Shown: positions 10,840 through 22,392 of the stretch, piece after piece | How the letters are laid out: each line of letters begins with the position of its first letter | Numbering within the stretch: the stretch's first letter is position 1 | Assembly: GCF_014695385.1 (NCBI RefSeq) | Contig: NZ_JACJOD010000024.1 | Location: forward strand, 62,001 to 126,000 | DNA length: 64,000 nucleotides | Direction of reading: 5' to 3' | Origin: Trichocoleus sp. FACHB-46 | GTDB taxonomy: Bacteria; Cyanobacteriota; Cyanobacteriia; FACHB-46 | Program-made: the position numbers and the translations under genes | The notes under the pieces: generated by a model | Told to the model about the DNA's origin: nothing | Database searches by the model: none | What the model saw: only the letters and a program-made list of their open reading frames with translations

Positions 10840-11233
10840 ACGGCTCAGTGAGTGCTTCTCCATCTTCAGTCCAGCAAATTTTTTCTATGAGTAGAGATCG
10901 GGAAAATCGCTGATCTGAGAGGGCAATCGCGCGGATATAAATCAGGAGATAGAAACTAGGAGAAGCATTATGGGTCTGGGTAGAGCGCACCACCACGCGA
11001 CCACATCCGATTCCAGAGGCATTGTTACAGGGTTTTCGAGTTCAAGTGCGATCGCCTAAGTGATCTTAAAGATTTGGTTAAGTAACATCCCCCTTTAGAA
11101 TGAAAATTTTTAATTTAGTCTAGGCAGTGCCCGGTCGGGAAGGCTAAGGTTGTGGAGCAGTTCCTTGCCTGCTTCAGATCCAAACCTGGGTTAGGCATCT
11201 ACTCACTCCACCCCGTCAGGACTTTCACGACCC
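10840..11233. other. 394-bp leader region with a possible structured RNA
   Basis: No gene fits. The part at about 11120-11225 is GC-richer than the rest and holds interleaved complementary segments: TTGCCTGCTTCAGATCCA against TGGGTTAGGCA, and GGGAAGGCTAAGG against CCTTGCC. This could fold as a structured 5' leader ahead of the gene at 11234. It does not match the conserved core of SRP RNA, RNase P RNA, tmRNA or the cobalamin riboswitch as I know them. Confidence 0.35.
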
Positions 11234-11566
11234 ATGAACCCTAGCAGTAACCCAGAAGAAGAATTGCGACGGCGAGAAAAAGAATTGCGAGAGCGAGAAC
11301 ATGCCTTGCGGCTCCGGGAGCTAGAAGCTGAAATCAATCAAACACATCAGCCCCCTCTCTATGAAACCGCGAAACACCAGCCATCTAAAAAGTCATTGCA
11401 GCAATGGTCCAAGCAGCTGGTGAATGTGGCTCAGTTTATGGGCATTGCAGTTGCAGTGATCATCACGATTCGGATTGCAACCTGGCTCACGGGAGTGGTG
11501 ATTGTGGGAGGAGTAGCTTGGGTCGCGTACAAACTGTTTTTTGAAAGCGATCGCGCTAGACGTTGA
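11234..11566 (+). CDS. Coiled-coil protein with C-terminal membrane hairpin, unknown
   Basis: 110 aa. The first 36 residues are a highly charged helix (EEELRRREKELREREHALRL). A Pro-rich linker follows, and then a hydrophobic stretch from about residue 68 to 102 (GIAVAVIITIRIATWLTGVV and IVGGVAWVAYKLFF), probably two membrane passes or one long hairpin. No family was recognised. It is the first gene of the rightward run that leads into a second membrane protein and two dynamin-like GTPases, so a membrane-remodelling role is possible but inferred only from position. Confidence 0.65.
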   Translation: MNPSSNPEEELRRREKELREREHALRLRELEAEINQTHQPPLYETAKHQPSKKSLQQWSKQLVNVAQFMGIAVAVIITIRIATWLTGVVIVGGVAWVAYKLFFESDRARR

Positions 11567-11677
11567 AAATAGCTACGTTTCGAGGCAGCAGCTACTAGAC
11601 AAGAATCAATCGAGACGTTCCCTCTCTAAAGCTACTTTTACAACGCCCTCTTCCTCCCCTTCATAGGGGTTTTACCC

Positions 11678-12235
11678 ATGAAAAACTGGCCTGCTTGGAT
11701 TCCGGTACCGAGTGCATGGATGAGCGCTGTACTGTTGGTTTTGCTGACGGGTAGCCTTGCTTTTGCAGTGAAACTAATTTGGCAAATGGGCTATTTTATG
11801 GCTCGATTCCTGCCACCTGTGGCAATCTCCTTTGGCGTGTTGGCGCTGCTCTCTCCCATTGTGATCATTGCGATTTTTCATCATTTATTACACCTATTTC
11901 TCGATCGCTTCTTTCCCGAAACGCGATCGCCTGAAATGGAGCCCAATTTAGGGTTTTTTCCCAGCCTCATGAGTTGGTGGGAAGGCGTGATGGGATGGTC
12001 AGCCATTCTATTAGCGACTTTGGCAACCGTTGGGATTGTGGGCCCCTTCTTGCCCACTTGGCGATCGCTTTACCCCTTATATTCCATGTTTTTAGCTTGG
12101 GATAAAACTCACTATTTATTCACGATTCCGACAGTAGTTTGGGTGATTGCGGCTGCCTACATTTATCACTTCGAGCATGTAGTTCGTCATCATCTGATTG
12201 CAGTTGGGGCAGCAAATCGAGCGAATCGACGTTAA
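11678..12235 (+). CDS. Multipass membrane protein, unknown
   Basis: 185 aa with four predicted membrane helices: residues about 10-32 (MSAVLLVLLTGSLAFAVKLI), 42-70 (FLPPVAISFGVLALLSPIVI), 105-125 (SAILLATLATVGIVGPFL) and 145-162 (YLFTIPTVVWVIAAAYIYHF). Loops contain charged His/Arg-rich pieces. No family was recognised. It starts 112 bp after the coiled-coil membrane gene and ends 48 bp before the first dynamin gene, all on the same strand, which suggests a transcription unit. Confidence 0.7.
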   Translation: MKNWPAWIPVPSAWMSAVLLVLLTGSLAFAVKLIWQMGYFMARFLPPVAISFGVLALLSPIVIIAIFHHLLHLFLDRFFPETRSPEMEPNLGFFPSLMSWWEGVMGWSAILLATLATVGIVGPFLPTWRSLYPLYSMFLAWDKTHYLFTIPTVVWVIAAAYIYHFEHVVRHHLIAVGAANRANRR

Positions 12236-12283
12236 ACCAAGATTCCATTTAGGCATCAAGTTATTTCAATTGAGGCAGGATTC

Positions 12284-14359
12284 ATGAGCGTCAAAGTTGA
12301 GGCGGAAGGTTTGTTACTCGATCTAGATCGAGTTGCTAGAGTGCGGCATCAAATGGCTCAACATTTAGACAATATTTCGGGAGCCTTGAGTAGAGCTGAG
12401 GTCGAGAGTAGCCAAGCTTCTGGCAAGCTGGAGTTAGACGGAGAGATTCAAGATTTAAACCTCACTAGCCAGAACTTACGCCAAGGTGTGTTCCGCTTGC
12501 TAGTTTTGGGAGATATCAAGCGGGGTAAAAGCACATTGCTCAACGCCTTGATTGGCGAGAACCTGCTGCCCAGCGATGTCAGCCCTTGCACTGCTCTGCT
12601 AACTGTATTGCGCTATGGCCCGGAGAAGCAAGTTACGGTTTACTTCAAAGGCGATCGCCCGCCTGAGCGCCTAGACTTCACCAGCTTCAGGCAAAAGTAC
12701 ACAATAGATCCGAGCGAAGCCAAACAGCTAGAGGAAGTCAAGCAACTCGCTTTTCCCCAAGTTAGCCATGCTGTGGTGGAATATCCTTTACCCTTCCTGG
12801 AAAAGGGTGTGGAGATTGTTGATAGTCCTGGACTAAATGACACCGAAGCACGCAACGAATTATCGCTTAGCTACATCAACAATTGCCATGCGGTTCTGTT
12901 TGTCTTCCGAGCTTCCCAACCCTGCACCCTAGACGAACGCCGCTATTTAGAGAATTATCTCAAAGACCGAGGGCTCACCGTTTTCTTCTTGATTAATGCT
13001 TGGGACGAAATTCGTAAAAGCTTAGTTGACTTGGATGATGCCGATGAACTGCGAGAGGCAGAAGCCAAGCTACGGCAGGTGTTTCGCACGAACTTAGCGG
13101 AGTATTGCCGCGTCGATGGTCAAGATCTGTATAACCAGCGCGTCTTTGAACTGTCCTCACTTGATGCTCTGCGTCGCCGCCTCAAAGATGCTGCCGACCC
13201 GCTAACCGGAACAGGTTTCCCGGAATTTGAAGCCGCGCTTAGTCGCTTTCTGACTCAAGAACGTGCTGTGGCAGAACTGCGCCAAGCGACGACCCTGGCT
13301 CGCCAAGCCTATAACCATGCTCACGAAGCGATCGCCCGTCGTATCCCCCTGCTCGATCAGGATGTGCAGGAACTAAAGGAACGCCTGAAGTCTGTGGAGC
13401 CAGAATTTGCCAAACTGAATGAGATTCGCGATCAGTTCCAAGCGGAAATCCGAGAGCTACGCGATCGCAAAGCCAAGGAGATTGCGACTGATTTCTGCTC
13501 CTACATTCTCAATTTAGGCACCACGTTCGACACTGATTTCTTGCGCTATCAACCAGGCATTAGTTTTTGGGATTTTCTCTCTCAGGGACGGCGAGAAGAG
13601 TTTAATGCTGCTTGTCGGCAAGCGTTTGAGCGTTACATCAACGAAAAGATTGTAGCTTGGCAACGTACGGCTGAGCAGGAAATCAGTACCGCCTTTGCTG
13701 AGCTGGGTAGAAGTGCTGCCAGCTATGGCACTGATTACAACCGCATCACCGACACCATCACTGAGAAGTTGATTGGGCAAACCATCTACACAGGCAACGC
13801 TTCATCAGAAAATAACTCTCCGACTTGGGCGAGATGGGCGATGGGATTCTTCTCCCTAACATCGGGCAATATTGCTGGGGTGTTTCTGGCGGGAGCAGGG
13901 TTTGATTGGAAAAACATCCTGGTCAACTATATTGCGGTGATTGGTATTACCAGCTTTCTAGCGCTGTTTACAGGTGCCTTTATTGGGCCGATTGGTATTA
14001 TGTTGGTCGGTTTAGGAATTGGTGCTTTGCAACTGGATCAAGCTCGCCAAGAGTTTGTTAAAGCTACGAAAAAAGAGTTCGTCAAACATCTTCCTGATAT
14101 CGCTCGTGATCAATGGAACCCAATCAATCAACTGATCAAAGATTGCTTTGATGCTTATGAGCGAGAAGTAATGAAGCGGATCAATGATGATATTCAAGCA
14201 CGCAGAGCTGAACTGGACAATTTAGTAGCGCAGAAGGAATCCCATGAGATTAATCGAGAAGCGGAAGCCAAGCGTTTACAAGCCTTAGACGCAGAAGTAT
14301 TGTCTGAAATCCGTACCGTTGAATCAGTTTATAACTCCATGTTGCTTCTATCCGTTTAG
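12284..14359 (+). CDS. Bacterial dynamin-like GTPase, tandem copy 1
   Basis: 691 aa. The N-terminal dynamin-type GTPase domain has P-loop GDIKRGKS (76-83), switch I threonine in PCTALLT, G3 DSPG (180-183, in EIVDSPGLNDTEAR) and G4 NAWD (238-241). A long helical stalk follows. A hydrophobic paddle-like segment near 545-585 (ILVNYIAVIGITSFLALFTG, then IGIMLVGLGIGAL) and a final coiled coil (RINDDIQARRAELDNLVAQK) complete the bacterial dynamin plan. Such proteins bind, tubulate or fuse membranes on GTP hydrolysis. Copy 2 follows 98 bp downstream and shares the motif positions exactly, suggesting heteromeric partners. The membrane role is inferred from the family. Confidence 0.9.
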   Translation: MSVKVEAEGLLLDLDRVARVRHQMAQHLDNISGALSRAEVESSQASGKLELDGEIQDLNLTSQNLRQGVFRLLVLGDIKRGKSTLLNALIGENLLPSDVSPCTALLTVLRYGPEKQVTVYFKGDRPPERLDFTSFRQKYTIDPSEAKQLEEVKQLAFPQVSHAVVEYPLPFLEKGVEIVDSPGLNDTEARNELSLSYINNCHAVLFVFRASQPCTLDERRYLENYLKDRGLTVFFLINAWDEIRKSLVDLDDADELREAEAKLRQVFRTNLAEYCRVDGQDLYNQRVFELSSLDALRRRLKDAADPLTGTGFPEFEAALSRFLTQERAVAELRQATTLARQAYNHAHEAIARRIPLLDQDVQELKERLKSVEPEFAKLNEIRDQFQAEIRELRDRKAKEIATDFCSYILNLGTTFDTDFLRYQPGISFWDFLSQGRREEFNAACRQAFERYINEKIVAWQRTAEQEISTAFAELGRSAASYGTDYNRITDTITEKLIGQTIYTGNASSENNSPTWARWAMGFFSLTSGNIAGVFLAGAGFDWKNILVNYIAVIGITSFLALFTGAFIGPIGIMLVGLGIGALQLDQARQEFVKATKKEFVKHLPDIARDQWNPINQLIKDCFDAYEREVMKRINDDIQARRAELDNLVAQKESHEINREAEAKRLQALDAEVLSEIRTVESVYNSMLLLSV

Positions 14360-14457
14360 CTGTGATCAACGATTAGGGATATGTCAATTCCTGACTGGCT
14401 GGCGATCGCGTCTACTTTTAACTGCTCATTTCGCTCCACTAAAAAATATCAACAACC

Positions 14458-16530
14458 ATGAGTGCCAAAATTGAAGCGACAGGATTTCTCAACGATTTAG
14501 ATCGCGTGGCTCAAGTGCGATCGCAGGTCGCCAACTCTTTGGGCCGCATGGTAGATACTCTGAAACAATCCGAGCTAGAGGGAGCCAGTAGTTCGGGGCA
14601 GCTCGGTTTAGAACGTGATATCGAAGATCTCGCTGTAGCCAGCAAAAACTTGCAGCAGGGCGTATTTCGGCTGTTGGTATTGGGTGACATGAAGCGGGGC
14701 AAGAGTACCTTCCTGAATGCGCTGATCGGAGAAAACCTGTTACCTAGTGATGTCAATCCTTGCACCGCTATCCTCACAGTGTTGCGCTACGGGCTGGAGA
14801 AGAAAGTGACAGTGCACTTCAATGACGGCACTCGTCCAGAACAGCTCGACTTCAAAACTTTTAAGCAGCGCTACACAATTGATCCAGGAGAGGCTAAACA
14901 ACTAGAACAACAGAAAAAACAGGCTTTCCCCAACATCGATTGCGCGATCGTAGAATACCCGCTTCCCCTACTGCAACGTGGGGTAGAAATTGTGGACAGT
15001 CCGGGGTTGAACGACACGGAAGCGCGGAATGAGTTATCTCTCGGATACATCAACAACTGCCATGCGATTCTATTTGTCTTACGGGCTTCTCAACCTTGTA
15101 CGTTGGGTGAACGCCGCTACCTAGAAAACTACATCAAGGGCCGAGGTCTGACGGTTTTCTTTCTGGTGAATGCTTGGGACCAGGTGCGGGAAAGCTTGAT
15201 TGACCCTGATGATACTGAAGAATTAGAAGAGGCCGCAACCAAACTACGACGTGTTTTCAAAGCCAACCTAGCAGAATATTGTGTGGCTGATGGCTATGAC
15301 CTCTACGAAGAACGGGTATTTGAGTTATCTTCGCTCAAAGCCCTGCGCTTGAGAGTCAAGAATCCAGACGCTGCTCTCGCTGATACAGGCTTCCCAGAGT
15401 TTATGGGCGCACTGAACATCTTTTTAACCCAGGAGCGAGCCATCTCTGAGTTGCGGCAAGCCAGAACTTTAGCGCGGCAAGCAGCTACTCATGTAGGAGA
15501 AGCGATCGCTCGGCGCATTCCCTTGCTCGATCAAGATGTGAATGAACTTAAACAACGAATTAACTCGGTAGAACCAGAGTTCGTCAAACTCACCGAAATT
15601 CGCGACCAGTTTCAAGATGAGATCCGCAACTTGAGAGATCGTCGAGCTAGAGCGATCGCAGACTCTTTCCGCACCTATGTGTTGAACCTGGAGCATACCT
15701 TTGAGCAAGACTTTTTGCAGTACCAACCGAATCTGCAATTCATGGACTTTTTCAGTCAAGGCAAGCGAGAAGCATTTGCAGCAGAGCTAGAGAAATCCTT
15801 TCAGCAATATGTCAATGACAAGTTCTGCGCCTGGAGCCTCACCGTCCAAAAGGATATGGAAGCTGCCTTTACCCAACTCTCCAGCAGGGCTGCGAACTAT
15901 GGTGCCTCTTATACCCAAGTCACCGACCAAATCACGGCCAAGTTAACCGGACAAAAGATCCAGACTCGCACCAACGCCTCAACTGAAGATGATTCTCCTG
16001 CTTGGGCGAAGTGGGCAATGGGTTTAGTCTCTCTCGCCAGAGGTAATTTAGCAGGCGTGGCAATGGCGGGAGCAGGCTTCGATTGGCAAAATATTTTGCT
16101 CAACTTCCTGACTGTGACCAGCATTGCCGTGGTGGCGTCGTCTATGTTCGGTATTATGCTCGGTCCCTTGTGGCTGGGCTTAATTGGCTTAGGAATGGGA
16201 GTGGCGCAAGCCGATCAATCCCGCAAAGAATTGGTAAAAGCCACGAAAAAAGAGCTTGTGAAACATTTGCCGCAGGTGGCTCAAGAGCAGTGGCAACCCA
16301 TTTACAGTGCAATCCAAGAATGTTTTGATTCCTACGAGCGCGAGGTGATTAAGCGCATCAACGACGATATTCAATCGCGTAAAGCCGAGCTAGAAAACCT
16401 CTTGCAACAAAAAACGTCCCATGAAATTAATCGTGAGAATGAAATCAACCGCCTCAAAGGAATTGAAAAATCTGTCCTCTCTGACAGTCAAAACGTTGAG
16501 ACGGCTTATCAAAACTTACTCAGGGTTTAA
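14458..16530 (+). CDS. Bacterial dynamin-like GTPase, tandem copy 2
   Basis: 690 aa, collinear with copy 1 along its entire length, including the N-terminal helix (IEATGFLNDLDRVAQVR), P-loop GDMKRGKS (76-83), DSPG (180-183), NAWD (238-241), a hydrophobic paddle at about 545-585 (ILLNFLTVTSIAVVASSMFG) and the terminal coiled coil (RINDDIQSRKAELENLLQQK). Divergence is spread over the protein, so the duplication is not recent. Its stop codon lies inside a perfect palindrome (16529-16544). A convergent Mn catalase gene begins its 3' end 30 bp later. Copies 1 and 2 may form a hetero-oligomer, as reported for paired bacterial dynamins. Confidence 0.9.
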   Translation: MSAKIEATGFLNDLDRVAQVRSQVANSLGRMVDTLKQSELEGASSSGQLGLERDIEDLAVASKNLQQGVFRLLVLGDMKRGKSTFLNALIGENLLPSDVNPCTAILTVLRYGLEKKVTVHFNDGTRPEQLDFKTFKQRYTIDPGEAKQLEQQKKQAFPNIDCAIVEYPLPLLQRGVEIVDSPGLNDTEARNELSLGYINNCHAILFVLRASQPCTLGERRYLENYIKGRGLTVFFLVNAWDQVRESLIDPDDTEELEEAATKLRRVFKANLAEYCVADGYDLYEERVFELSSLKALRLRVKNPDAALADTGFPEFMGALNIFLTQERAISELRQARTLARQAATHVGEAIARRIPLLDQDVNELKQRINSVEPEFVKLTEIRDQFQDEIRNLRDRRARAIADSFRTYVLNLEHTFEQDFLQYQPNLQFMDFFSQGKREAFAAELEKSFQQYVNDKFCAWSLTVQKDMEAAFTQLSSRAANYGASYTQVTDQITAKLTGQKIQTRTNASTEDDSPAWAKWAMGLVSLARGNLAGVAMAGAGFDWQNILLNFLTVTSIAVVASSMFGIMLGPLWLGLIGLGMGVAQADQSRKELVKATKKELVKHLPQVAQEQWQPIYSAIQECFDSYEREVIKRINDDIQSRKAELENLLQQKTSHEINRENEINRLKGIEKSVLSDSQNVETAYQNLLRV

Positions 16531-16545
16531 ACGCGATCGCGTTTT
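16529..16545. terminator. Palindrome AAACGCGATCGCGTTT at a convergent gene junction
   Basis: A 16-bp perfect palindrome built on a HIP1 octamer, starting in the stop codon of dynamin copy 2 and followed by a short T-run. As RNA it gives a 6-bp stem with a GATC loop. It could be a weak bidirectional terminator between copy 2 and the Mn catalase gene, or just a HIP1 site. Confidence 0.35.
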
Positions 16546-16559
16546 CCCGTTCTTCAGAC

Positions 16560-17255
16560 TTATTTAGCAGAAGTATTTAGCGGATCAGCCACATATTCGA
16601 AGGTAGGCTCAGAGTTCCAGGGGCCACGTTCGTCTGGCTTATCCCCATCCGTCGATAAGTTGAAGTAGAGTGCTACAGTCTCATCTGGCTGGATGTTGCC
16701 AAACATCGGATCAGTGAGTTTGCCCATAGAATCTAGCGCTTTCATAAACATCTGCGTGTGCGAAATTTCGCGTGTCAACAGATGAACGAGGGTTTTTTTG
16801 GTTCCTTCATCGGTACATAACTTGATCAACTCTTCGTAGGTTTGACGAGCACCCGCTTCTGCGGCAATATTTGCTCTCAAGTCACGCACCACATCTCCGC
16901 CTTCGTTCAAGTAGCTAGCAGTCCAGTTGTTTCCTTGACTATCTAGAAAATGAGGCCCCTTACCGCGCACTGCAAAGAGCGTACTCTTGTAGGCTTCTGT
17001 TTGGTCCACATCTTTTGTATGAACTTCAATCAATTTGCCTACCATTTCGAGGTGGCTAAATTCCTCGATCGCGATGTCTTGCAGCATGTCTCGAATCCCG
17101 GCATTCTCCACATGGAAAGACTGCACCCAGTACTGCAAGGCGGCTGAGAGTTCTCCGGTGGCTCCACCAAACTGCTCTAGCATCAACTGAGCAAACCGAG
17201 GATCGGGCTCATTAACCTGAACTGTATGAATGGGTTCTTTTTTATGAAAAAACAT
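16560..17255 (-). CDS. Manganese (non-haem) catalase
   Basis: 231 aa, ferritin-like four-helix bundle. The dimanganese ligands fit the family pattern: Glu35 (TGELSAAL), Glu65 and His68 (EEFSHLE), Glu132 (AEAGARQTYEEL) and His165 (REISHTQMF). The N-terminal VNEPDPRFAQLMLEQFGGAT matches Mn catalases. The C-terminal domain is short (ends DPLNTSAK), as in compact cyanobacterial forms. It disproportionates hydrogen peroxide in the cytoplasm without haem. It is read leftward, convergent with dynamin copy 2 and divergent from the third dynamin gene, so it interrupts the dynamin cluster rather than belonging to its transcript. Confidence 0.93.
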   Translation of the reverse strand: MFFHKKEPIHTVQVNEPDPRFAQLMLEQFGGATGELSAALQYWVQSFHVENAGIRDMLQDIAIEEFSHLEMVGKLIEVHTKDVDQTEAYKSTLFAVRGKGPHFLDSQGNNWTASYLNEGGDVVRDLRANIAAEAGARQTYEELIKLCTDEGTKKTLVHLLTREISHTQMFMKALDSMGKLTDPMFGNIQPDETVALYFNLSTDGDKPDERGPWNSEPTFEYVADPLNTSAK

Positions 17256-17638
17256 AATCTTGGCCTCAGGCTCCTAATAAATTCGGTGCAATGAAATTAA
17301 GAGATATCTCAAAATTCACTGTGGATTTTCACAATCCTGCGTTCAGCTTAGGAGGCCTTACAGATTCATTCGTACCGCTGGAGGTATAGTTAATCGAAAT
17401 AATTGATTTTCCTAAAGGGAGTATAAATACTTGCCTGAGCGCACTCTCTCCCCTTTTTTTAACAAAATTTTCAGCCAAAATTCCCTTCAAATTCTGAGCA
17501 AAAATATCACTTTAATACAAGTATTGATGAGGCTCTTTGCGATCGCTTCCCCAGACGCTCCTAAAGACACTTCCACAGACATTTCTAGACAAATTTTTTG
17601 AGATTGATATCTTATAAACAGGCGTTCAAGTCAACCGT
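17256..17638. other. Divergent promoter region between Mn catalase and dynamin 3
   Basis: 383 bp, AT-rich, without a gene. It must hold both promoters. TATAAATAC at about 17422 and TCTTATAAAC at about 17611 are candidate -10-like elements on the plus strand, but neither has a well-placed -35 box. Runs of T and A (17456-17470) may mark the catalase leader. Confidence 0.35.
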
Positions 17639-19318
17639 ATGCAGTCACCCAACGCTTCCCAGAATTTACTAACGACGCTTAAAACAGCGGTAGGTCTGCT
17701 GGACTTAGAACCCAATTCACCCTTGAAGCAAGATGTCATCGCAGTTTGCGATCGCCTAACCAGTTCTGATTTTCGCATCGCAGTATTCGGCCCCTTCAAC
17801 TACGGCAAATCCACGCTGCTGAATGCCCTACTCGGTGAAAAAGCTTTACCCATTGACCTGATTCCTACCACAGGCGCAGCGATTCGAGTTAAGTACGGCT
17901 CTGACTTATCCACTCGGATTTTGTTGAGCAGTGGCGCTGAGATCTGCGAAACGGGCACCGATGTTTTGAAGCGATTTGCCACCTTAGATGATCAGCGGCG
18001 GATGCGAGAGGATGTGGCTGCGGTTGAGGTGTACTGTCCCCATCCTTTTTTGCAAACAGGCGTAGAGCTGCTAGATTTACCCGGAACTAACGATCGCGAA
18101 GCTCAAGATGCCTTAGTGAAAGACCAACTCTTAACCGCAGATCTGGTCGTGCAAGTCTTGGATGGCCGCAAACTAATGACCTTGGGAGAGCGAGAAAACC
18201 TGCGGGATTGGTTGCTCGATCGCGGCATTACCACGGTGGTATTCGTCGTCAATTTCCTCAACTTACTGGAAACCGACGACCAAAAAGAAGTGTATCGGCG
18301 CATGCGATTTGTCGCTGAGAGTTTTCGTTCACAATTACCTCCGGGTGTTAGCAATCTATATCGTGTCGATGCCTTACCTGCCCTGAGATCCCGCCTAAAA
18401 GGAGATATGGCAGCGGCTCAGACGGCAGGACTCCCTATGTTTGAATCTGCTTTGCAGAGCATTGTCCAAGCACAGCGTGGTCAGAGCGAACCTCGTTTAC
18501 CGCGTGTAGTCGTGTTAGCGAACCAAGTACAACAAGCCTTACAAGCTAAGCGAGAAGCGATCGCCCATGAAATCGCCACAGCAGAACAAACCCGCAACAA
18601 AAAAGTAGAAATCCGCCAAAAAGTCCAAAAACTGATCAAAGATGGGTTTCTCGCCAGTGCTACTCAATGCCGCGATTGGCTATCTCTCCCTAACCTGCTC
18701 GATCGCTACCAAGCCGATGTTGCCGACGCTCTCCAGAGATTTGACTTCGTTACCTGGGAAACCAACACACTGAAACCTGGCTGGAACGAGCAAAAGCGAT
18801 CGCTCGCCGCATGGGTTTACAAAGCTTGTGATTTTCTCAACTGTCCTCGACCCACAGATCCGTGGTTTGCTTTCCCTGAAGCGCCTCAAGTCTTCCTGAC
18901 ACAAGACCCACCCACAACCAAAAGCTCCAGTTCATCGAGTGATTCTACACCTGTCGCGATCGCCACTGGGCTAGGTTGGGTGTTAGGAGGCCCATTAGGA
19001 GCCGCAGTTTTAGGAGGAGCCAGCTATCTGCTCAATCAAACCACTGATACTTCCGCCTCGACATCGCCCACTTCTGCCGCAGCTTACACAGTCCAAACTC
19101 AGCAAGCTTGTTCGGAGGCTGCGAAAGATTATTTAATTCGCTTCAGCACTCTGGCTTTGGCAGCACTGCGCGACTACGAAATCACCGCCGAGCAAATCTT
19201 CAATTTCTCTGTACCCGTCGAACCCCTAGAACTTTCCCACCAACGCCATCAACTGCGATTGCTAGACTCGACGTTAAACAACCTCAGTGATGCTCTTGCT
19301 AGCTGTATTACAACCTAA
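17639..19318 (+). CDS. Divergent dynamin-like GTPase, short form
   Basis: 559 aa. The GTPase domain has P-loop GPFNYGKS (51-58), switch I region IPTTGAA and G3 DLPG (146-149, in ELLDLPGTNDREAQ). The usual G4 N-x-x-D is replaced by NFLN (205-208) in VVFVVNFLNLL, so guanine recognition may differ. A helical region follows, and near 440-465 a glycine-rich hydrophobic hairpin (GLGWVLGGPLGAAVLGGASY), typical of membrane-inserting paddles in bacterial dynamins. It is shorter than copies 1 and 2 by about 130 residues and only distantly related. It may act with them because of location; this is inference. Confidence 0.85.
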   Translation: MQSPNASQNLLTTLKTAVGLLDLEPNSPLKQDVIAVCDRLTSSDFRIAVFGPFNYGKSTLLNALLGEKALPIDLIPTTGAAIRVKYGSDLSTRILLSSGAEICETGTDVLKRFATLDDQRRMREDVAAVEVYCPHPFLQTGVELLDLPGTNDREAQDALVKDQLLTADLVVQVLDGRKLMTLGERENLRDWLLDRGITTVVFVVNFLNLLETDDQKEVYRRMRFVAESFRSQLPPGVSNLYRVDALPALRSRLKGDMAAAQTAGLPMFESALQSIVQAQRGQSEPRLPRVVVLANQVQQALQAKREAIAHEIATAEQTRNKKVEIRQKVQKLIKDGFLASATQCRDWLSLPNLLDRYQADVADALQRFDFVTWETNTLKPGWNEQKRSLAAWVYKACDFLNCPRPTDPWFAFPEAPQVFLTQDPPTTKSSSSSSDSTPVAIATGLGWVLGGPLGAAVLGGASYLLNQTTDTSASTSPTSAAAYTVQTQQACSEAAKDYLIRFSTLALAALRDYEITAEQIFNFSVPVEPLELSHQRHQLRLLDSTLNNLSDALASCITT

Positions 19319-19350
19319 AGATAGTGCTGTAAACTGCAACCAACTCCGCA

Positions 19351-20418
19351 TTATTTCTGAGGATTACTTAGCTCAGTCACAGACTTATTGGTGAGTTGTA
19401 CCATTTGCAGCAAAGCAATAGAGAGAAACAGGGAGGCTCCATTTTTAGCGACAAAAAACCAGGAAGATAGATTTTCCTCACTGCCCAGTCTCACGCTTAC
19501 TCTATAAACTTGATCTAACAGGTTAGAAGTAATCAGGGCAATGTAGAACCACGGTAGCCATTGGCGTATAGCGATTGCTCGTTGCGCTAGACTCTTGCCT
19601 TGAGACTTTAGATGCTCTGCTAGCGTGGTAAAGATATTCCAGATTCCCCAGAGGCTGTACAAAGGAATTACAAATCGAGCGATCGCTCCCCCACCAGAAA
19701 TCGGATAGCGCTGGAAGATGTGTTTCAGTCTCGCATGGGTTTGGTGTAGCCAAACTAACATCAAAAGCAACGCGGTTAAATACACCCAGCCACTGAAACT
19801 ATCTAGGGGTGACCATAAATTGTAAATGAGCTTGATGACTGCATTAATTAAGCTTGCCAAGAATCCTGTAGCATCGGCAATCCCCAGCAAATTGTAGACA
19901 TAGTATGAGGTAGCCCAAACGATAAAGTAGACGACGAATAAAACATCAAGGCTTAGGCGCACCCATAGGCTAGTCATGAGCAGCCTACTTAACCAAATCA
20001 GAGCCTTAGGTTGAGGTAGTTTTGCCCCTGTTACGTTCTGAGATACATCAGAAGCAATCTTGGAAGACTGACGCGCTGAAATATCTGACGCAGTATCCGT
20101 GACAAAATCATCGCTGGGGTTAGTCTCGATCAAATTCAAGGTTTGGCTCCAAGCTGGCATCGTTTGACCGCTTCTTTGCCCATATACCTGAACCGTTTCT
20201 AGCCCTGGAACCTGCAACTTAGCAATTCCTTGATCAATGAACCGAATCATGATTTGTTGATCGGGCAGCTGATCCGACTCCAGCAACACTCGGAGAGAGC
20301 CTTCCTTGCGGTTCACTTTTGCTGTGATGCCCTTACTTTGCAGCGAACGGTTCATCAACTGGGCGATCGCCTGGGGGTCTCCTTGTTTTGCTTGTGCTAA
20401 AACCTCTGATTGCGTCAT
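19351..20418 (-). CDS. Membrane protein with a duplicated cyanobacterial N-terminal domain
   Basis: 355 aa. Residues 1-95 form a soluble domain (AKQGDPQAIAQLMNRSLQSK ... VYGQRSGQTMPAWSQ) also found at the start of the neighbouring 556-aa protein. Its helix-strand layout recurs in many cyanobacterial proteins of unknown role. After a Ser-rich linker come about five membrane helices (from about residue 145), including VRLSLDVLFVVYFIVWATSY, WVYLTALLLMLVWLH and FVIPLYSLWGIWNIF. The domain pairing suggests a cytoplasmic sensing or docking domain attached to a membrane module. No catalytic motif was seen. Confidence 0.78.
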   Translation of the reverse strand: MTQSEVLAQAKQGDPQAIAQLMNRSLQSKGITAKVNRKEGSLRVLLESDQLPDQQIMIRFIDQGIAKLQVPGLETVQVYGQRSGQTMPAWSQTLNLIETNPSDDFVTDTASDISARQSSKIASDVSQNVTGAKLPQPKALIWLSRLLMTSLWVRLSLDVLFVVYFIVWATSYYVYNLLGIADATGFLASLINAVIKLIYNLWSPLDSFSGWVYLTALLLMLVWLHQTHARLKHIFQRYPISGGGAIARFVIPLYSLWGIWNIFTTLAEHLKSQGKSLAQRAIAIRQWLPWFYIALITSNLLDQVYRVSVRLGSEENLSSWFFVAKNGASLFLSIALLQMVQLTNKSVTELSNPQK

Positions 20419-20526
20419 GGCATATCTCGCTCATTGATGATGGCAAACCAAGGCATGTCCCACCTGTACCCTGCGTTCTAAGGCACTACAAATCCTATCT
20501 GTAGGAATCCCAATTCTGTCCAACTT

Positions 20527-22197
20527 TTATCGACCCAATTTTTGCAACAACTCTCGCTTTGTCCTTTCTACAGCCGGAAAAGAGCCTGCTTGAATGGCTT
20601 TATCGTAAGATGCTAAGGCTTCTTCATAGCGTCCTAGCGTCTCTAGTAATAGACCTCGGTTATACCAAGCCCAACCAAACTCCGGATCAACCTGAGTAGC
20701 TTTATCGTAGGAGGCTAGAGCTTTCTCATACCGCCCTAGATCTGATAAATTCCAACCCCGACTATTCCAAGCATCCACATCTTTGGGATCGATCTGCACA
20801 GCCTTATCTAAAGCCATCAGATTCAGTTCCTGTGAATTAGCTACTGTATAGGATAACAAGCTAGCTTGGTAGTACCAAATTCCTGCTTGTTTCAGCTGAG
20901 TTTGCCGTCTTGTATCTTGATTAGCGGTTGCTTCTCGGTACCATTGCCACTTACGCTTTAAGACAATTTGAGCGACTGTCACCGAGTTACGATCCTCGTT
21001 AGTCCTCAAAGCTTTAGTGTATGCTTGCATCGCATCCTCATACCTTTGCTGACTCGCCAAGATGTGCCCTCGTACCAGCCAAACCTCACCAATGGGGCCT
21101 TCTGCTTGCAGCGCTCGATCTGAAGCGGCTAAAGCATCCTCAAATCTTTGCAACATTGCTAAAGTTGCGCTCTTAGCTCGCCAAGCACCGCCATAATTAG
21201 GCTTAACCTGAGTTGCTTGATCGAAGTCAGACACAGCTTTCTCATATTGCCCCATCTGCACTAGCACCAGTCCACGGTTATACCAAGCTTGCGGAAAATC
21301 TGGCTTAAGCTTAATGGCTTGATCGCAAGCAGCAACAGCTTCAGTCGAACGATTCAAGGTAAATAAAGCACCACAGCGGTCTTTCCAACCCTCAGCAAAT
21401 TTTGGGTTAATTTCGAGAGCTTTGTCAGCCGCCAGTAAAGCATCATCATCGTACCCTAGTCGGCGTAGGGTCAGGCTACGACCACTCCAAGCAGCAAAAT
21501 CAGCAGGGTTAATCTCAGTAGCTTTTTCATAAGCGCTCAAAGCTTCAGAGTGACGATTTAACCCAGCTAAGGCTTGGCCTTTGCGATACCAAGCTTCGTG
21601 GTTGTTGGAATCAGTTCGCAGCTCTCGCTCTGCCTCTGCCAATGCTGCTTCATGGGACTTGATGTTCTCTTGACTTAAACCTGTTGGTGCTTGTTGTTTT
21701 CGCATCAACGCTGCAATGTCACGTTGCACATACACCAAGGACCAGCCTACAACCACGACAGCCGCAACACTGGTGAGTACTAGAGCGGGAATCTGCCATT
21801 TTGCTAAATGTTGCTGTAACGGTTGCTGGGAGGGTAACTCTGGCTTAGCAAAGGCTGGTGCTATAGAGGTAAGTGGAGTCTTTGGATCTGGAACCTCAAA
21901 ACAAGTAGCATTGGATTCAAAGCTACGAGTCCAATCAGGAATTGCCTCACCTTTCTGCCTACCGTATATCTCAACTCGCTTCCAGGACTCAGACTCTAAC
22001 TGAGTAAGTCCTTTTTGAATTCCGCTCACTAAGGTAACAGGAGGTACTTGAGCAGACTCTAATAGAATCTTTAAACATTCCTCCTCTAAGGCAACCGTTG
22101 CTTCGATGCCTTTAGTCCGCAAGGAGCGATTAATCAACGCTGCGATCGCTGTAGGGCTTCCAGACTTCGCTTGTTCCATTAGGCTGACTTGTGTCAT
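20527..22197 (-). CDS. TPR-repeat protein with N-terminal cyanobacterial domain and membrane anchor
   Basis: 556 aa. Residues 1-95 are the same domain as in the 355-aa neighbour (AKSGSPTAIAALINRSLRTK ... IYGRQKGEAIPDWTRSFE). A Pro-rich linker and a single membrane helix at about 134-154 (LVLTSVAAVVVVGWSLVYV) follow. From about 190 to the C-terminus is an array of roughly nine tetratricopeptide repeats (repeated patterns like AWYNRGLVL...GRYEEALASYDKAIQ). TPR arrays are protein-interaction scaffolds. It is upstream of the 355-aa gene on the same strand (108-bp gap), so the two may share a transcript and interact. Confidence 0.85.
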   Translation of the reverse strand: MTQVSLMEQAKSGSPTAIAALINRSLRTKGIEATVALEEECLKILLESAQVPPVTLVSGIQKGLTQLESESWKRVEIYGRQKGEAIPDWTRSFESNATCFEVPDPKTPLTSIAPAFAKPELPSQQPLQQHLAKWQIPALVLTSVAAVVVVGWSLVYVQRDIAALMRKQQAPTGLSQENIKSHEAALAEAERELRTDSNNHEAWYRKGQALAGLNRHSEALSAYEKATEINPADFAAWSGRSLTLRRLGYDDDALLAADKALEINPKFAEGWKDRCGALFTLNRSTEAVAACDQAIKLKPDFPQAWYNRGLVLVQMGQYEKAVSDFDQATQVKPNYGGAWRAKSATLAMLQRFEDALAASDRALQAEGPIGEVWLVRGHILASQQRYEDAMQAYTKALRTNEDRNSVTVAQIVLKRKWQWYREATANQDTRRQTQLKQAGIWYYQASLLSYTVANSQELNLMALDKAVQIDPKDVDAWNSRGWNLSDLGRYEKALASYDKATQVDPEFGWAWYNRGLLLETLGRYEEALASYDKAIQAGSFPAVERTKRELLQKLGR

Positions 22198-22392
22198 AAC
22201 AAAGGCACCTTTCCCAGCTCAGATTACGAAGCTGCTTGTGATCATATCTACTGATCACAGTTGTAGTCTAGCTGACAGCTATCCTACTTATGCTTTGGCT
22301 CTGGCAAGAACAGATGAATATGCTTAAGGGTGATGCGGCAGCGAGAATTACTTGGATAGGCTAGAAGGTAAAACCTCCTATAGAAACCTTTT

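Follow-up and report, generated by a model that had tools for sequence, protein, structure and literature searches.

A co-inherited, enlarged BDLP1/BDLP2-type dynamin cassette in Trichocoleus sp. FACHB-46

A cluster of dynamin genes in Trichocoleus sp. FACHB-46 was analyzed within a 64,000-nt stretch of DNA (the window; assembly GCF_014695385.1, contig NZ_JACJOD010000024.1, positions 62,001-126,000 of the forward strand), and all positions given here are those of the window. The cluster encodes a small membrane protein (m110), a four-helix membrane protein (m185), two tandem BDLP1-type dynamins (BDLP1a and BDLP1b, hereafter copies 1 and 2) and a shorter dynamin-like protein (DLP3). It is an enlarged form of the partly known cyanobacterial BDLP1/BDLP2 cassette, real and conserved, and not a new system. 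Its parts are inherited jointly even when they lie far apart, and therefore probably constitute one machine. With a probability of about 0.6, we favor a heteromeric membrane-tethering or remodelling machine made up of two active GTPases, a DLP3 partner with an altered nucleotide pocket and an m110 anchor. The system-level claim is supported by the co-inheritance, while the interaction, function and biochemical roles of the parts are what we infer from sequence.

Co-inheritance and conserved order of the parts

Loci with BDLP1 relatives were taken from public genomes and from a 194-genome spread of the class, and were scored for the genes of the window. Among the 194 genomes a BDLP1-type gene was present in 30, DLP3 in 23 and m110 in 33. 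DLP3 was accompanied by BDLP1 in 22 of its 23 genomes (Fisher 2e-21; by genus 18/19, 5e-14) and by m110 in 21 (Fisher 1e-17), shared ancestry being only partly corrected for in these tests. The sole DLP3 genome without BDLP1 (G110) contained only a weak partial match, and BDLP1 was found without DLP3 in seven genomes with a diverged BDLP1 (49-58% identity) and in G135, where BDLP1 is truncated. Within the BDLP1 genomes, m110 was present in 20 of the 22 with DLP3 versus one of the eight without it (p 1e-4). In G015, G065 and G072 DLP3 was located on a different long contig from BDLP1, and in G161 it was located approximately 200 kb from BDLP1, adjoining m110; because of these unlinked cases, linkage does not explain the co-inheritance. 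An additional search covered 14 named genomes selected only by BDLP1; DLP3 was recovered from all 14 (interrupted in G204 and partial in G206, Paraprochloron) and m110 from 11, many of them unlinked. Joint decay was observed in Nostocaceae, where in G135 BDLP1 breaks off at residue 543 and DLP3 is missing, G177 has an intact m110 next to short BDLP1 remnants, and G096 retains only an m110 relic with stops. Co-inheritance of the partners, as would be expected of a heteromeric pair, was therefore observed.

The gene order m110, optionally m185, one to three BDLP1-type genes and DLP3 recurred in many families. With a and b denoting the upstream and downstream BDLP1 types described below, m110-BDLP1-DLP3 was found in Nostoc (loci L014, L017 and L035), m110-a-b-DLP3 in Symplocastrum (L010) and G051 (L107), m110-m185-b-DLP3 in G179 (L114), and m185-b-DLP3 in Aliterella (L011). 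Since the order recurs, the window DLP3 is the usual downstream partner and not a stray. Clustering of all neighbouring open reading frames revealed no widely shared family other than m110 and, in a minority of loci, m185; the other conserved neighbours were chromosomal context, in Nostocaceae only. The original prediction, made from the window alone, had suggested a possible membrane-remodelling or repair system, and both the recurring order and the strong co-inheritance bear out a conserved multi-dynamin system. The divergent third dynamin that it had described is the expected partner of BDLP1, and of the first four genes, whose synteny it proposed to check, the m110-BDLP1 order proved conserved and m185 was only loosely associated.

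Dynamins and membrane proteins of the cassette

Copies 1 and 2 both contained Dynamin_N at residues 73-239 (residues 47-205 in DLP3; Pfam, 1.5e-24 to 3.5e-32), and their second halves matched the bacterial dynamin helical domain PF21808 with 580 and 602 bits. Both matched 2j68_A from end to end (683 residues; 965 and 1090 bits), far beyond chance, and as judged by sequence both are homologous to Nostoc punctiforme BDLP1 (PDB 2j68) over the full length. The motifs GD[IM]KRGKST, DV[SN]PCTA, DSPGLND and NAWD were present in both copies, such that G1-G4 are intact. The two copies were approximately 63% identical; copy 1 was closer (68%) to an upstream copy from another lineage than to copy 2, and copy 2 was approximately 70% identical to N. 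punctiforme BDLP1. A maximum-likelihood phylogeny built from 43 BDLP1-type proteins grouped N. punctiforme BDLP1, copy 2 and all downstream copies in one clade (b, support 98/97). Copy 1 was placed outside this clade, as were the Moorena, Hydrococcus, Symplocastrum, Coleofasciculus, UBA11370 and G051 upstream copies and, further out, a second upstream type (c; L021, G188 and G092). On these sequence comparisons the tandem copies are ancient paralogues, type a upstream and type b downstream; at its BDLP1 locus Nostoc has type b only. When compared by region, copies 1 and 2 were most alike in the G domain (73%) and least alike in the N-terminal part (49%) and in the membrane tip and C-terminal region (55%), which would fit kept catalysis with diverging contacts. 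Type c is a deep third BDLP1 type with approximately 45-50% identity to copy 2; it adjoins m110 in L096, L120 and L066, and in L021, L115 and L120 it precedes a type-b gene.

DLP3 gave a sub-threshold match to PF21808 and matched the N. punctiforme BDLP1 structure sequence at 1e-24. It was 53% identical to the dynamin found at the same position, directly downstream of BDLP1, in Nostoc loci L014, L017 and L035, and up to 67% identical to orthologues in other lineages. DLP3 is the orthologue of this Nostoc dynamin, and by way of these close relatives it would appear to be the protein that the literature calls BDLP2 (Tandem clade). The Nostocaceae DLP3 proteins (L014, L017, L035, L106 and L109-L111) are approximately 745-785 amino acids (aa) long, at least ~190 aa longer than that of the window. 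With respect to the nucleotide-binding motifs, G1, G2 and G3 were intact, and G4 read NF[LI]N in 30 of 30 orthologues, as compared with an Asp kept in 69 of 69 BDLP1-type proteins; DLP3 therefore lacks the G4 Asp (NxxD) of a canonical GTP-specific dynamin. Alignment at G4 was unambiguous because of the flanking 'RG[IL].TV.F..N', and G56-K57-S58-T59, D146, P148, G149, N205 and N208 were invariant among the orthologues. In other GTPases the Asp-to-Asn change in G4 shifts the preference from guanine to xanthine nucleotides, and the D186N form of the dynamin-like Irga6 bound xanthosine triphosphate (XTP) nine times better than GTP while still hydrolysing GTP (PMC3042988). A structure model of DLP3 (predicted local distance difference test score 79, predicted template modelling score 0.56) gave BDLP 2j69 as best fold match (E 1e-18), next IniA, and then the Campylobacter pair and mitofusins. 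A glycine-rich hydrophobic stretch at residues 442-465, kept in most orthologues, may be a membrane tip.

m110 consists of a charged coiled-coil helix (residues 7-38), a 'TxKHxP'-type linker, a hydrophobic stretch of two-helix length (approximately 61-103) and a positive tail, and in its model residues 7-38 form a helix, the linker is disordered and the hydrophobic part is helical. The 40 members of the family shared an RLRE[LM]E core in the charged helix, a T-x-K-H-x-P-like linker, the two-helix hydrophobic stretch and YK[LI]F. These features are most naturally read as those of a membrane anchor whose coiled coil is cytoplasmic. Comparison of the m110 model with PDB gave no fold match, neither m110 nor m185 was named by NCBIfam, PADLOC or PHROGs, and Pfam matches of m110 (E 0.04 and worse) were dismissed as noise. 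m185 contained four hydrophobic stretches as measured by hydropathy. It was present in eight of the 194 genomes, four of them without BDLP1, which rules it out as a core part; from its distribution it is an occasional accessory, loosely associated with the cassette. No dynamin was found within ~7 kb of m110 in the inspected m110 genomes that are without BDLP1; the m110 homologues of G007, G056, G104, G148, G151, G191 and G021 have none in that range, and in G151 m110 and m185 are unlinked, with neither BDLP1 nor DLP3.

Locus layout and empty sites in congeners

The features of the locus are presented in Table 1. The original prediction had called two collinear full-length dynamins, a coiled-coil and a four-helix membrane protein upstream of them and a third dynamin, and all five open reading frames were confirmed at the stated coordinates and strand (110, 185, 691, 690 and 559 aa). 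It had placed the third dynamin 1.1 kb beyond copy 2, and the distance is indeed 1109 bp, but a minus-strand Mn-catalase gene, transcribed away from DLP3 and towards copy 2, lies in the gap and had been overlooked. With gaps of 111, 48 and 98 bp between its four same-strand genes, block 1 could plausibly be one operon. DLP3 is outside any operon with the other four because the opposite-strand resident gene intervenes, such that no uninterrupted same-strand run of five genes exists; it needs its own promoter, presumably in 17256-17638. This 383-bp intergenic region may serve the Mn-catalase gene and DLP3 in common. Promoter and terminator scans were no richer than in shuffled sequence (5 vs 8.2 and 7 vs 9.0, respectively), and at this chance level they are uninformative on transcription.

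Table 1. Features of the dynamin locus, in window positions
Feature	Position	Strand	Remarks
m110, 110 aa, small membrane protein	11234..11566	+	Conserved cassette member
m185, 185 aa, four-helix membrane protein	11678..12235	+	Accessory; in a minority of cassettes
BDLP1a (copy 1), 691 aa, upstream paralogue of the Nostoc BDLP1 family	12284..14359	+	G1-G4 intact, G4 NAWD
BDLP1b (copy 2), 690 aa, in clade with Nostoc punctiforme BDLP1 (PDB 2j68/2j69/2w6d)	14458..16530	+	G1-G4 intact
Mn-catalase-family protein, 231 aa	16560..17255	-	PF05067, 2e-51; resident, outside the system
DLP3, 559 aa, shorter dynamin-like protein	17639..19318	+	G1-G3 intact; G4 = NFLN, residues 205-208
Block 1 (m110-m185-BDLP1a-BDLP1b)	11060..16550		Empty site in congeners G040 and G025
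Block 2 (DLP3, 355-aa gene and TPR gene, the latter two on the minus strand)	17480..22318		Empty site in G040 and G025

The dynamin system was absent from both other genomes of the genus. The flanks of the window were collinear with these congeners (G040 and G025), in which blocks 1 and 2 were missing and the Mn-catalase gene was present between the two empty sites, with 98% aa identity. In G040 the blocks are replaced by ~110 bp and 169 bp, and G025 has the same spacers, the first of which carries an inserted IS66-type transposase (PF03050, 5.5e-39; G025:C1 ~2088.7-2090.1 kb, L185/L186). With both blocks missing and the Mn-catalase gene kept, the gain or loss of the dynamin genes took place on either side of a resident gene; one homologous exchange across the entire stretch would account for both blocks together. 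Mn catalase was rejected as a functional partner, being resident in both dynamin-less congeners, and it was found near no other cassette locus. Base composition was 0.485 versus a background of 0.484, giving no sign of foreign origin, and the dynamin blocks contained no mobility or defence genes. The cluster had been proposed as a system of this lineage; the cassette is not confined to it and occurs in many families. Positions 19351-22197 on the minus strand encode a 355-aa membrane protein with a weak DUF4328 match and a 556-aa tetratricopeptide repeat (TPR) protein, whose N-terminal domains resemble each other ('QAK.G.P.AIA.L.NRSL..KGI.A.V') and both of which are gone with DLP3 in both congeners.

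Relation to known systems and competing explanations

The cluster had also been put forward as unreported, which does not hold: the BDLP1 structure is solved, the Nostoc BDLP1/BDLP2 tandem is on record (PMC4159319), and Tandem A and Tandem B clades of cyanobacterial BDLPs have been defined, with hetero-oligomers proposed (PMC5827413). The window resembles the Nostoc tandem in its downstream dynamin, its gene order and the m110 gene found upstream in Nostoc relatives (L014, L017 and L035), and differs from it in the added upstream type-a gene and m185 and in a DLP3 that is shorter (559 vs ~747 aa) and split from copy 2 by a resident gene. The BDLP1-type proteins correspond to Tandem B, and the strongly different partner to Tandem A. 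Pairs are described in the main text of PMC5827413, where m110, the a/b split, the G4 Asn and the unlinked co-inheritance are unmentioned; nor were these features mentioned in the open-access texts searched, and their novelty is provisional. The Campylobacter jejuni pair Cj-DLP1/Cj-DLP2, a membrane-tethering heterotetramer (PDB 5owv, PMC6104087), likewise consists of tandem dynamins and has a fold that matches the DLP3 model. Its GTP hydrolysis requires the heteromer (PMC6104087), and it differs from the window in its low sequence similarity, the lack of a reported small membrane protein and its requirement for both P-loops to be functional. LeoABC of enterotoxigenic E. coli (PMC4159319) is also a multi-dynamin gene cluster, but the profile matches of the window to it are weak and the neighbours different. 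With mitofusins and Fzo1 the fold class and the heterotypic fusion logic are in common, and the sequence similarity is remote.

In the machine that we favor, m110 would reside in either the thylakoid or the cytoplasmic membrane, where its coiled coil would recruit the dynamins. The hydrophobic tips of BDLP1a and BDLP1b would enter the membrane, and GTP-dependent assembly would enable membrane bending or tethering of the kind seen in vitro with Nostoc BDLP1. DLP3, itself with little or altered guanine selectivity, would pair with them by the G domain and/or neck and regulate assembly or hydrolysis, the most likely result being that cell or thylakoid membranes are tethered, fused or curved. Several observations weigh against this proposal. 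The seven diverged-BDLP1 genomes carry neither DLP3 nor m110, and 12 of the 33 m110 genomes are without BDLP1, so m110 may serve other uses and need not be a dedicated subunit everywhere. Monophyly of type a (seven proteins) is weak (support 57/25). The domain arrangement of DLP3 is of moderate confidence and remains uncertain because the whole-chain superposition on BDLP is loose (template modelling score 0.37), and, by analogy with Irga6-D186N, the G4 Asn need not abolish GTP use. A more specific version of the proposal, in which the fixed Asp-to-Asn change re-specifies the DLP3 pocket for xanthine nucleotides or weak base selectivity, making DLP3 a regulatory or structural subunit of an m110-anchored three-dynamin heteromer, and Nostoc BDLP1 has been studied without its obligate partners, is put forward as doubtful.

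The most serious competitor, which we nevertheless regard as unlikely, is that BDLP1a, BDLP1b and DLP3 are each homo-oligomeric with separate duties, held together by an ancestral tandem and joint horizontal transfer. Nostoc BDLP1 does form dimers and lipid tubes by itself (PMC2862293, PMC5827413), and DLP3 is frequently unlinked and in the window is a separate transcription unit; against this, the co-inheritance holds when the genes are unlinked, beyond what joint transfer of one DNA segment would give, and the m110/DLP3/BDLP1 set is lost jointly in one family. Less probable again is an anti-phage or stress-island role, in which a Leo-type dynamin cassette would come and go as an accessory element. 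Patchiness within the genus, the clean empty sites and the PADLOC Leo matches would suit such a role, but these matches are weak and unspecific (best 1.7e-18, 65 bits), the same LeoA model topping all three dynamins with no specific Leo profile found, and background composition, the lack of mobility or defence genes in the blocks and the lineage-stable sites of many Nostocaceae copies all argue otherwise. A recent and functionally meaningless local duplication as the origin of copies 1 and 2, which their adjacent and collinear position might suggest, is very improbable: the tree largely rules out a recent event, the upstream copies of seven lineages lying outside the 98/97 clade of all downstream copies, and the identity between the two copies is low, copy 1 being nearer to an upstream copy of a different lineage.

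Six of the diverged-BDLP1 genomes (G012, G108, G117, G134, G144 and G175; 55-58% identity) represent a lineage in which DLP3 and m110 were lost or never had, and this lineage provides a natural contrast for function. BDLP1, the most thoroughly studied bacterial dynamin, serves as the structural model for mitofusin-type dynamins, and its GTPase activity is unresponsive to lipid or self-assembly (PMC5827413). The fixed change in the DLP3 nucleotide pocket adds to the features named by comparison, and the co-inherited partners DLP3 and m110, together with the ancient paralogue of type a, may be what is missing from the BDLP1 in vitro system.

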